Source: Thermodesulfobacteriota bacterium (GTDB lineage Bacteria > Desulfobacterota_D > UBA1144 > Nemesobacterales > UBA2774). From it: a stretch of 38,625 bases of DNA. Location of the stretch: contig BQJP01000025.1 in the NCBI GenBank assembly GCA_021604765.1, positions 1 through 38,625 of the forward strand, in the 5' to 3' direction. The notes beneath the pieces were generated by a model that saw nothing but the letters and a program-made list of their open reading frames with translations, was not told the DNA's origin and searched no databases. A program made the translations under genes and the position numbers. Within the stretch, counting starts at the first letter, position 1. Each line of letters starts with the position of its first letter. Of this stretch, positions 7,193 through 10,858 are shown piece after piece.

Positions 7193-7702
7193 TTAGAGTG
7201 TTATTATTTCTGTGAGTTCAGCTGTTTTGGTATTAAGCAAAAGCCCTGTTATTGTTATATCTTTATCAATAAGAGGATGATTTCTTATATGCATTACATC
7301 GTTTTTAATACTTTCTATTCTATCAGAAATTGTTAACCAGTTAATGAACTCTCCTTCAGATGAGTGAAGTTTTTCTTTTAATAATCGTCCCATTTCTTCT
7401 TGTGTAAATGTTTCAAAACCACATTCTGAATGGTGTATAATTAGAAATTCGTTAGTTCCTAAGTATGTATAAGAAGCCACAAGTGAACGTATGGCATCTT
7501 CGCTTGCCCGGCCTCCTCCATTTCTAATAAAATGAGCATCCCCCAATTCCAAACCTAAGAATTTTAAAGGGTCAAGGCGGCAGTCCATACATGTTAAAAC
7601 TGCTAGTCTCTTTTTTGGAGCTGCACCCAAATCTGAATTCTCGCCAAATTCCTTAGCGTATTGTTGGTTAGCTGACATTATGTGGTTAATATTGTCACTC
7701 AC
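7193..7702 (-). CDS. Small beta-class carbonic anhydrase
   Basis: A 169-residue enzyme expected to interconvert CO2 and bicarbonate. Zinc ligands are Cys38 and the pair His91/Cys94 ('HHSECG'). The Asp-Arg dyad is Asp40 and Arg42 within 'TCMDCRLDP'. 'IRNGGGRASEDAIRSL' is the conserved helix after strand 2. The length and the 'MD.RLDP' wording match the short clade typified by mycobacterial Rv1284, not the ~220-residue plant-like type. It follows the sigma factor gene by 58 bp on the same strand and has its own AGGAGAA site, so it may be read through from the sigma factor promoter. Confidence 0.9.
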   Translation of the reverse strand: MSDNINHIMSANQQYAKEFGENSDLGAAPKKRLAVLTCMDCRLDPLKFLGLELGDAHFIRNGGGRASEDAIRSLVASYTYLGTNEFLIIHHSECGFETFTQEEMGRLLKEKLHSSEGEFINWLTISDRIESIKNDVMHIRNHPLIDKDITITGLLLNTKTAELTEIITL

Positions 7703-7760: not shown

Positions 7761-8894
7761 TTAAGTCAAGAAGTCTTTTAATATATACCCTTCTTCTGAA
7801 GCCGCTATTTTTTTAAGTGCTATAGTTTCAATTTGTCTTATACGTTCTCTGCTCAAGCTATATTTAAGTGCTATCTGTTCGAGCTTATGAGGATCTTCAT
7901 AATCAATGCCGAACCTCATTTTTAGCACATCTCTTTCTCTATCGGATAATTGTCTAAGCGATCTCCTAACTCTTTTTGTCATAGAGTTCTCAGCAATGTA
8001 ATAGTCGGCTTTCTTGCTGTTAGGGTCAGGAACTATGTCTAGATAGGTTTTAGTGTCTTCATCCACTCCTGATACTTCTAAGGGAACAGTTAGATTTCTT
8101 CCCCTTAGAATAGTGTTTACTACATCTTTGGAGAGACCTGTTTCTAGAGCTATTTCTTCGCTATCAGCTGTTTTTTCTCTATTATATTCTAGCCTGGCTT
8201 TTGCTTTAAAAACTACAGATGCTTGCTCCTGTAAATAGACCGGGATAGAAATTACCTTCGTTTGTTCCATGATCGCTCTGGATAATGACTGATGTATCCA
8301 CCAAGCACTGTAGGTTGAGAATTTAAATCCCTTTGTATGATCAAATTTTTCAACTGCTTTCATCAGTCCTATATTCCCTTCTTGTATCAAATCAGAGAGT
8401 GGAAGACCTCTGCTTTGATACCTATTGGCTAGATCAATTACAAATCTCAAATTGGACTTGATAAATTTCTCTCTAATCCTCAGTACTCTATCATTAAATA
8501 GTCTCTGCTTAGCTTGAAGATATGCTGTGTTTGTTTTTTTTGTATAGGTTTTTTTGCTATCTATTGTGTTCAGCTGTTCGAGTATTTCTTTAGTCTTTTC
8601 TTTGCAAATTTTTAACTGTGCCGCTAGAGCTAATTCATCTCGTCTGCTAAGGAGCCCCTCACCGTTTAAGTCTTTATAATATGCGAAAAGCAGTCTATAG
8701 TTTTTATTAACTGTTCCTGTATCAATTTCTGCTTCATCAGTTTCTGATTCCTTGTGTTCATCTTGATTATTGTCGGCATCAAAATTGATTTCATTTGCGG
8801 AATAATTTTGCTCAGAATCTTCTGATACAATGATCTCTGAGTGCTCAAAGGCATTGGTTAATAATTCATTCCCCTCTATTTGTTTAAGTGCCAT
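7761..8894 (-). CDS. Sigma-70-family factor, group 2 (RpoS/RpoD-like, no region 1.1)
   Basis: A 377-residue RNA polymerase sigma factor with regions 1.2 to 4.2. The first ~65 residues are acidic and unlike region 1.1. Region 1.2 spans about 68-98 ('YYKDLNGEGLLSRRDEL'). Region 2 spans 144-212, with the core-binding 'LPLSDLIQEGNIGLMKAVEKF' stretch and region 2.4 'STYSAWWIHQSLSRAI'. Region 3 spans about 214-290 and region 4 about 310-366, with the helix-turn-helix 'YSLSRERIRQIE'. Region 4.2 keeps the residues that read a housekeeping -35 element. In region 2.4 the usual 'WWIRQAIT' is 'WWIHQSLS'. The lack of region 1.1 and of the long non-conserved region points to an alternative, stationary- or stress-type factor. 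Translation starts behind GAGGAT; two palindromes overlap its promoter region. Confidence 0.9.
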   Translation of the reverse strand: MALKQIEGNELLTNAFEHSEIIVSEDSEQNYSANEINFDADNNQDEHKESETDEAEIDTGTVNKNYRLLFAYYKDLNGEGLLSRRDELALAAQLKICKEKTKEILEQLNTIDSKKTYTKKTNTAYLQAKQRLFNDRVLRIREKFIKSNLRFVIDLANRYQSRGLPLSDLIQEGNIGLMKAVEKFDHTKGFKFSTYSAWWIHQSLSRAIMEQTKVISIPVYLQEQASVVFKAKARLEYNREKTADSEEIALETGLSKDVVNTILRGRNLTVPLEVSGVDEDTKTYLDIVPDPNSKKADYYIAENSMTKRVRRSLRQLSDRERDVLKMRFGIDYEDPHKLEQIALKYSLSRERIRQIETIALKKIAASEEGYILKDFLT

Positions 8895-8920
8895 ATTCTT
8901 TAATCCTCAGAAGAATTTAA

Positions 8921-8981
8921 TTTAGGGTAACTAATGTTTAGGAACCCTAAATAAATATAATAAATTTTTTTCAGAAATCAA
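8921..8981 (-). promoter_or_regulatory. Sigma factor gene promoter with two palindromic operators
   Basis: Read on the minus strand, TTGATT (8981-8976) and TATATT (8959-8954) with a 16-bp spacer form a good promoter. Its upstream end lies inside the last codon of the MarR gene. Just downstream lie TTTAGG-AAC-CCTAAA (8937-8951, perfect 6+3+6) and a weaker copy TTTAGG-GTA-ACTAAT (8921-8935), with centres 16 bp apart. Both match the palindrome upstream of the MarR gene. A repressor bound here would cover the transcription start. Confidence 0.6.
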
Positions 8982-9589
8982 TGTTTTTTGTAGTGAGGAC
9001 ATTCTTTACATATATCATCTTCGCTTAGGAGTGTGTGGAGTTGCTCACAATAGTGGGGTTTAGGATCACCTATAAATCTATCTCTGCTAAAATAACAACA
9101 ATCTGTGCAAATATCACTACTGAAGATAAGTCCTTTATCAGTAAGTCTCTCTGTTATTCTATGAAGTAGATTCTCAAGTATCTCTTGTTCTTTCTCTGTG
9201 AATTCTGAAACTATTTCTTCAAGTTCTATTCCTATGTCTTCAAGTAAGTTCACCGCACGGATGCCACTTTGAGTCAAGTCTAGATGGACTTTTCTTCGAT
9301 CCTCCAAGTCTCGGCTTCTTAAGATCAGCTTTTTCTTTTCTAAAGAATCTATAATTCCGCTTGCTGTTGCAGGAGCGCATGAAAGGTTTTTCGCAATATT
9401 ACCAACTGTGATCGCTTCTTTTCTTGTGTAATTAATAAATAGGAGTGTTTTGATTTGAACCGGTGTAAGGTGTTCAATTTTACTCTTATCCCAGAAGATA
9501 TTCCTTACAGCCTGGCTTATACTAAAAAAGGTTCTAGTTATTTGGCCGCCTAAATTATTCTGACGGTAAAGTGGATCAAAGATAGACAT
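8978..9589 (-). CDS. MarR-family regulator with a cysteine-rich C-terminal extension
   Basis: A 203-residue protein, about 50 longer than a usual MarR repressor. Residues 20-150 form the dimeric winged-helix domain: recognition region 'TVGNIAKNLSCAPATASGII' and wing 'RSRDLEDRRKVHLDLTQSG'. The extra tail (151-203) holds Cys161, Cys164, Cys165, Cys181, Cys194 and Cys197, with His179 and His199 alongside, in a CxxCC...HYC...CxxC pattern. Such spacing suggests a Zn or Fe-S site and hence metal or redox sensing; this is inference. The ATG is preceded by AAGGTGA. A palindrome 12 bp upstream of the ATG implies autoregulation, and the same palindrome lies before the sigma factor gene just downstream. 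Confidence 0.85.
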   Translation of the reverse strand: MSIFDPLYRQNNLGGQITRTFFSISQAVRNIFWDKSKIEHLTPVQIKTLLFINYTRKEAITVGNIAKNLSCAPATASGIIDSLEKKKLILRSRDLEDRRKVHLDLTQSGIRAVNLLEDIGIELEEIVSEFTEKEQEILENLLHRITERLTDKGLIFSSDICTDCCYFSRDRFIGDPKPHYCEQLHTLLSEDDICKECPHYKKH

Positions 9590-9601
9590 TGGTCACCTTT
9601 A

Positions 9602-9645
9602 TTTAGGATACCTAATAGATCTTAGTTAATACAAGTTAATACAAT
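9602..9645 (-). promoter_or_regulatory. MarR gene upstream region: palindromic operator and tandem 10-mer
   Basis: TTTAGG-ATA-CCTAAT (9602-9616) is a 6+3+6 palindrome, one mismatch from perfect, and shares its half-sites with the pair before the sigma factor gene. Immediately upstream is a tandem repeat of TTAATACAA(G/T) at 9626-9635 and 9636-9645. Each copy gives a TTGTAT on the minus strand that could serve as a -35; TATCCT (9610-9605), inside the palindrome, could be the -10. The operator would thus overlap the promoter of its own regulator gene. Confidence 0.55.
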
Positions 9646-9658
9646 AGAATAGAAGAGA

Positions 9659-10858
9659 TTACAGTAGCTCAAGCCCATTCTCTGCTTCTGCAAAATATGC
9701 GGCTGCAGTTTCTTTTACGTTGGGATACTCATTCGTGTATTTATTCATTATTTCTGTTGCTGAGTCCTCTGTAATTTCATTTCTGACAAACGCAACGACA
9801 CATCCTCCATATCCGCCGCCATTAATTGCAGCACCATAAACTCCCTCCCTCAAGCTACTTAATTCAAAGAGCCTTTTAGCTTCCGGGCTGCCCCTATCAT
9901 AATTTTCTATAGTACTAATAGAAGATTCGTTCATCAATTGGCCAAATTTATCGATATCTCCGGTATTCCAAGCCTCTATTCCTTGCTCTACACGCCCGAC
10001 TTCTGAGAAATAATGAGCCGCCCAATTTTTTACATCCTCGGGCAATCTTTTTTTCTGGGCCTCGTAAACTTCAGATGGTATATCTGATAATACACTTGGA
10101 GATTTTAATCCTCCCATAAGTCCTAACAGGCCTGCTGTTCTTTTACATGCTTCAACCCTCTCGTTAAAACCTGATGAGGTTAGCTCATGGCTCAGACCAG
10201 TATATAAAATGAGAATCTTAAACTCCTTTCCAGATTCTGGTCTCGGATGTTCAATAACCTTTTTAGATTTAGTATCAATATATAACAATTGATCTTTCTT
10301 CCCATGGATAATTGAGCTCTGATCTAAAATACCGTTTTGCAATTTTAGATATTTATTTTCTATCCCTGAGTCGAGACAAACATATTGATCAGGTGTGAGA
10401 TTGTAATTATTTAAGTGAGAGAGTGCTTTAAGATAAGCTAGACCCACTGAGGCTGAAGAGCTTAAACCGCTTGCAGGCAATGACCCAGTTACTGCTCCTG
10501 TGAACCCTACTTCAATCGCCATATGTTCTTGAATAATTTTAGCTGCCCCCATTGCGTATCTTCCCCAGTCATCTTTTCTCGTAGTTCGTATGTTGTCTAA
10601 ACCAAACTCTACAATTCCCGGATAGTTTGTACTGTACAAACGAATTCTTCTCTCATCATTTGGAGCAAAGGCTAAGAGTGTTCTGGCGTTAATAGTCATA
10701 CCCAATACAGGACCGCCCTGATGATCTATGTGTGCACCAAGTGGTGAAATACGGTATGGGGAAGCTACAATATTTAATTCAGAATAGGCAAATTTTTCTC
10801 GTATTCGTAGATGTTCTATAAGTGTCTCAACTTGATCTTGTAGGGCTGGGAATTCCAT
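9659..10858 (-). CDS. GHMP sugar kinase, galacturonokinase-like (usually annotated galactokinase)
   Basis: A 399-residue GHMP kinase phosphorylating a sugar at C1 with ATP. Motif 1, 'SPYRISPLGAHIDHQGG' (33-49), replaces the galactokinase 'GRVNLIGEHTDYN'; the sugar-contacting Glu is Ala42, while His43 and Asp45 remain. From memory, plant D-galacturonokinase has nearly this wording ('PLGAHIDHQGG'). Motif 2 is 'PASGLSSSAS' (128-137), the catalytic Asp is Asp179 in 'GILDQ', and motif 3 is 'AINGGGYGGCVVAFV'. The product would then be galacturonate 1-phosphate, feeding nucleotide-sugar salvage. This rests on motif likeness; true galactokinase remains possible. The gene lies 17 bp downstream of the ABC transporter and is likely in one operon with it. 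Confidence 0.75.
   Translation of the reverse strand: MEFPALQDQVETLIEHLRIREKFAYSELNIVASPYRISPLGAHIDHQGGPVLGMTINARTLLAFAPNDERRIRLYSTNYPGIVEFGLDNIRTTRKDDWGRYAMGAAKIIQEHMAIEVGFTGAVTGSLPASGLSSSASVGLAYLKALSHLNNYNLTPDQYVCLDSGIENKYLKLQNGILDQSSIIHGKKDQLLYIDTKSKKVIEHPRPESGKEFKILILYTGLSHELTSSGFNERVEACKRTAGLLGLMGGLKSPSVLSDIPSEVYEAQKKRLPEDVKNWAAHYFSEVGRVEQGIEAWNTGDIDKFGQLMNESSISTIENYDRGSPEAKRLFELSSLREGVYGAAINGGGYGGCVVAFVRNEITEDSATEIMNKYTNEYPNVKETAAAYFAEAENGLELL

Follow-up and report, generated by a model that had tools for sequence, protein, structure and literature searches.

Matching putative operators link a cysteine-tailed MarR-family gene to an adjacent sigma-70-family gene in Dadabacteria

Introduction

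Two neighboring genes of a Dadabacteria genome, one coding for a MarR-like protein with a cysteine-rich tail and the other for a sigma-70-family factor, are each preceded by a palindrome of the TTTAGGN3CCTAAA type. This arrangement raises the question of whether the MarR protein controls the expression of both genes, as was proposed in an initial, sequence-only reading of the locus that described an autorepressor gating a sigma regulon. We address this question through comparative analysis of a 38.6-kb stretch of DNA (hereafter, the window) and of the orthologous loci in related genomes. The nearest named relatives of the window genome are mostly Candidatus Dadabacteria MAGs, with a few titled Deltaproteobacteria, Desulfobacterota or Thermodesulfobacteriales.

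Direct control of sigma genes is already known for regulators of the TetR family. One of these is MtrR, a TetR-family protein for which the target gene, rpoH, is not adjacent, unlike the sigma gene of the window. In Neisseria gonorrhoeae, MtrR binds and represses rpoH, and its structure with the rpoH operator has been solved (PMC8053128). The case described here resembles that of MtrR in that a small dimeric repressor would act directly on the operator of a sigma-70-family gene, and differs in that MtrR has the TetR fold, is an efflux regulator, targets a sigma factor of the sigma-32 type and lacks a Cys tail. PsrA, the TetR-family regulator from Pseudomonas, controls both rpoS and itself via one palindrome type (PMC13104628), and in Borrelia, rpoS is bound at its 5' side by BadR, which is not a MarR (PMC6117026). 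In the open-access literature, the coverage of which is incomplete, we found no description of a MarR-family protein that represses a group-2 sigma gene directly.

Results

The locus comprises four minus-strand genes: first a galactokinase-like gene, then the marR-like gene, the sigma gene and a carbonic-anhydrase-like gene. The marR-like gene (8978-9589) encodes a 203-aa protein that consists of a winged-helix domain and the Cys-rich tail. The protein matches PF01047 (MarR) with 46.1 bits against a curated cut-off of 24.6, and its nearest solved relative, in both sequence (about 30% identity) and fold (Foldseek probability 1.00), is the MarR-family protein MepR of Staphylococcus aureus, which, however, lacks the Cys tail and represses a drug efflux gene. 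The cut-offs for the named MarR equivalogs (Saro_0803, BilQ, FabT, AdcR, OhrR, SlyA) were not reached, the best score being 44.3 bits vs 200. Orthologs of the cysteine-tailed MarR in Dadabacteria show 45-87% identity.

The tail has the layout C161-x2-C164-C165 ... PHYC181 ... C194-x2-C197. Among 14 orthologs, C161, C164, H179, C181, and C197 are invariant, and C165 is present in all but one; also invariant are the recognition-helix residues P73, A74, T75, and S77. No relatives of the tail were detected in Pfam or PDB, and the model of its structure is of low confidence, with pLDDT values of about 40-47. The conservation of the cysteines suggests sensing that involves thiols, Zn or an Fe-S cluster. 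A parallel is provided by ArnR of Corynebacteria, which binds [4Fe-4S] and the DNA binding of which is eliminated by NO (PMC12343034). ArnR likewise combines a MarR/ArsR-like winged-helix domain with a C-terminal Cys sensor region, a likeness taken from its published description; its three Cys are differently spaced, and it acts on nar and hmp rather than on a sigma gene. By analogy, the tail may hold an Fe-S cluster, with Zn or thiol chemistry equally possible. Cys-tailed MarRs that are related to this one but have no sigma neighbor are encoded in Dadabacteria, beside the trigger factor gene (tig), and also in more distant genomes. In genomes of family f1, such a second Cys-tailed MarR, with the tail CxxC...HxC...CxEH, is located upstream of tig (L114:2793-3374, L126:3110-3676); with no sites nearby and no sigma neighbor, this paralog was rejected as part of the same system.

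The sigma gene (7761-8894, 377 aa) encodes regions 2, 3 and 4, with PF04542 and PF04545 scoring above the cut-off and PF04539 just below it. Scores for the RpoS/RpoD equivalogs were under the respective cut-offs (rpoS_proteo, 216 vs 379 bits; RpoD_Cterm, 231 vs 354 bits), and by its sequence, the protein is an RpoD/RpoS-like (group 1/2) sigma-70 factor. Region 4.2 is housekeeping-like, and the otherwise conserved TRTIRVP stretch that follows region 2.4 is altered in the f1 sigmas. A separate, housekeeping-type RpoD-like paralog is present in the same genome (G000:C4), where we counted approximately 11 full-length RpoD/RpoS-like sigma paralogs and 27 sigma70_r4 hits. This expansion of RpoD/RpoS-like sigmas is marked in the Dadabacteria family of the window; our search for literature on Dadabacteria sigma factors yielded no paper.

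The palindromes described previously are located precisely where they had been placed: the perfect one, TTTAGGAACCCTAAA, at 8937-8951 in front of the sigma gene; one with a single mismatch, TTTAGGATACCTAAT, at 9602-9616 in front of marR; and one with two mismatches, TTTAGGGTAACTAAT, at 8921-8935, which has the TTAGN5CTAA form on the coding strand and is centred 16 bp away from the centre of the perfect site. We denote these the primary sigma-gene, marR (autoregulatory) and secondary putative operators, respectively. The candidate marR operator begins 27 nt before the marR ATG and ends 12 nt before it, so that relative to the start codons, the sites are at about -27 (marR) and -57 (sigma). Within the window, the exact core TTAGGN3CCTAA is confined to two places, 8937-8951 and 9602-9616, vs 0.05 expected occurrences, and none of 100 shuffles reached two; with up to 3 mismatches, the motif is no commoner than chance (25 vs 30 expected). 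It had also been claimed that the window contained no comparable palindrome elsewhere. This holds for sequences of the TTTAGG type but not for palindromy as such, given that the window includes 18 inverted repeats that match perfectly over 6-bp arms separated by 3 bp; hence, what is unusual is the matching sequence at two neighboring promoters rather than the palindromic structure. Across the entire genome (3.42 Mb), the marR-sigma locus is the sole location of the perfect 15-mer. A two-mismatch match inside marR (9540-9554) is not kept in relatives.

For comparison, we employed 14 orthologous marR loci from three families (f1, f2, and f4), which share ancestry and so do not represent 14 independent events. 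In relatives, the palindromes are retained along with the gene pair. The sigma-side palindrome is found in 14/14 loci, 29-50 nt downstream of the marR stop codon (perfect in 11 and with one mismatch in 3), and is followed by a sigma-70-family gene wherever the contig continues. The marR-side palindrome is present in 13/14 loci, in most cases 27-30 nt and in one case 50 nt upstream of the marR start; it is absent in G016. The arm bases are conserved at 98% in the sigma site and 89% in the marR site, compared to 48-66% in the flanks, so that, on the sequence evidence, the flanking DNA is diverged around a fixed island of palindromes. By way of calibration, only 0.7% of 110-bp stretches taken at random from 20 neighborhoods, the marR-sigma locus among them, contain a site with no more than one mismatch. 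The secondary site is in register, 16 bp from the primary one, in the nine f1 loci, being close to TTAGN5CTAA if not always exact, and is missing from the f2 and f4 loci.

These patterns bear on the possibility that the palindromes function as RNA, with a hairpin between the two genes acting as an attenuator or terminator. The tandem sites of the window genome can jointly fold into a 9-pair stem, but the z-score is only -1.6 and there is no terminator-like site; the second site required for the long stem is the one that f2 and f4 lack; the arms are kept as sequence and not by covariation, with variable loops (conservation of the 3-bp loop is 55% in the sigma site and 81% in the marR site); and the same motif also stands before marR. 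We therefore regard an RNA function as very improbable.

The order of marR and the sigma gene is kept where the contig allows it to be traced, and the genes upstream differ. Carbonic anhydrase, suggested earlier as a possible read-through partner, is not conserved as a component of the module: the beta-carbonic-anhydrase-like gene (7193-7702, minus strand, PF00484) is located after the sigma gene in the window and G009, an arrangement that five other loci (G008, G013, G016, G026, and G030) lack. A match before a carbonic anhydrase gene of G030 was discarded, as it overlaps the likely Shine-Dalgarno sequence of that gene.

The gene pair and the sites come and go together. In five genomes of the same genus (G001, G002, G004, G005, and G006), the MarR and any close ortholog of the sigma factor are absent, the sigma relatives among the best hits being distant, with ~42% identity or less, and no exact TTTAGGN3CCTAA was detected in these genomes except for one within an ORF of G002. 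When the 250 bp upstream of sigma genes were scanned in parallel, allowing no more than one mismatch, sites were found for 10/10 MarR-linked genes and 0/~29 unlinked ones. Consistent with the earlier expectation that the motif is not randomly scattered, most exact matches in marR-bearing genomes are at the marR-sigma locus, and in the window genome, all one-mismatch matches away from the locus but one are inside ORFs. We considered and rejected a genome-wide MarR regulon: the pattern with up to two mismatches is no commoner than its reversed control (221 vs 348). Because the motif is not spread genome-wide, the MarR, judged by the site distribution, looks like a dedicated gatekeeper of the sigma gene. 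Additional intergenic sites, counted on the loci fetched, are lineage-specific, such as those before an NIR_SIR reductase gene in G016 and a dehydrogenase-like gene in G007. In G022, a tandem TTTAGGGTTCCTAAA-g-TTTAGGATAACTAAg precedes a cytochrome P460 gene (L156:1501-1531, G022:C123:2093) and shares the 16-bp register of the window sites.

A further palindrome, TTTAGGTACCCTAAC, is located in the window genome 45 nt before the start of a peroxiredoxin (AhpC-TSA) gene (G000:C20:37514-37528; L010, L145, L164). It cannot be taken as proof of a MarR regulon: the TTAGGTAnSCTAA palindrome before this gene is kept in most genomes of genus g1, including some that lack the MarR-sigma pair and thus the cysteine-tailed MarR. 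Accordingly, such sites may have one or more readers besides this MarR, and this is the main weakness in assigning all of them to it. An alternative is that all TTAGGN3CCTAA sites are read by a different regulator, one that also serves the peroxiredoxin gene, with marR and the sigma gene merely two of its targets. We deem this decidedly improbable given that the exact sites of most other marR-bearing genomes are concentrated at the marR-sigma locus, and that in f4, they vanish together with the gene pair (zero exact sites in G028 and G034, and a single one, inside an ORF, in G018). Moreover, G001, G002, and G004 yielded no MarR with a similar recognition helix, and the neighborhood of the tig-linked paralog is, as noted above, devoid of such sites.

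The position of the sigma-side palindrome relative to the promoter is informative as to the direction of control. TTGATT-16-TATATT (8981-8954, minus strand) is the only consensus promoter match in 8850-9760, and the primary palindrome starts 2 bp after its inferred -10 element. Such matches are easily reached by shuffled sequences, which average 2.9 of them, and the weight of the promoter call comes from its position beside the palindrome and from the like arrangement in relatives, where equal promoter spacing is readable. In G026, G030, and G032, the first ATG of the sigma ORF is about 3-10 nt after the palindrome, which leaves no room for a promoter downstream. With a consensus promoter just upstream of the palindrome and no space for one beyond it in these three genomes, occlusion of the start region is, as far as sequence can tell, the likely mode of action, and the site would serve in repression.

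The opposite sign has a precedent in PsrA, and the MarR could accordingly bind the same sites and repress itself but activate the sigma gene. The layouts are nearly the same, with the PsrA palindromes at -28 relative to its own ATG and at -59 to -35 relative to the rpoS ATG (PMC13104628), and in both cases, one palindrome type is found at the regulator's own promoter and that of an RpoS-type sigma. PsrA, however, belongs to the TetR family, activates rpoS and is linked to fatty acids, and activation is hard to reconcile with the consensus promoter immediately upstream of the sigma-gene palindrome or with the lack of promoter room downstream of it in G026, G030, and G032, so that we consider it unlikely.

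Discussion

The proposal of a MarR autorepressor that also controls a sigma gene is supported by site conservation, linkage, and the non-random distribution of the motif. We consider it quite probable, on these comparative grounds, that the two genes comprise a module in which the cysteine-tailed MarR represses itself and the adjacent RpoD/RpoS-like sigma gene. Sites, their conservation, linkage, joint presence or absence with the gene pair, and placement next to a consensus promoter are directly seen at these loci, and from them, we infer DNA binding by the MarR, repression as its sign, a signal, and a regulon of the sigma factor. In this scheme, a dimer of the cysteine-tailed MarR would bind TTTAGGN3CCTAAA; occupancy of the site over the marR start region would repress marR, and occupancy of the single site, or of the tandem pair 16 bp apart, over the sigma start region would shut off the sigma gene. 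The Cys tail would sense a signal, conceivably thiol oxidation, Zn, or loss or nitrosylation of an Fe-S cluster, that releases both promoters, and the sigma factor thus produced would turn on its regulon. Such a circuit would add the MarR family to the TetR family as a source of repressors that act directly on sigma genes. It would also provide one of the roughly 11 RpoD/RpoS-like sigmas of an uncultured phylum with a specific controller that can be put to the test and with a precisely defined operator, the Cys tail being a route to the signal and, later, to the sigma regulon in organisms that cannot be grown.

The history of the sigma component appears to be more complicated. In a maximum-likelihood tree, the ten linked sigmas of f1 form one clade (100/100), and the linked sigmas of f4 group with unlinked f4 sigmas, forcing at least two label changes, with the caveat that the branches are long and exact placement is unsure. 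If this placement is right, the repressor and its operators stayed in place and the attached sigma changed. We put forward, tentatively and with somewhat more doubt than conviction, a broader interpretation in which the cysteine-tailed MarR is a redox- or metal-responsive switch with little more than one target, a group-2 sigma factor. In this view, the repressor and its operators persisted while the attached sigma was exchanged between lineages, making the MarR a portable sensor-to-sigma adaptor in a phylum with expanded sigma factors.

The module is also subject to decay and, possibly, duplication. A second copy in G022 (L128:1687-2604, G022:C704) is decaying: its marR frame is without a normal start, the sigma gene has lost its core and is reduced to 125 aa, and each of its two sites has decayed to two mismatches. 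A further sigma gene, at a contig end in G032 (L135, G032:C50), carries a perfect palindrome just before its start, so that this genome may have the module in duplicate.
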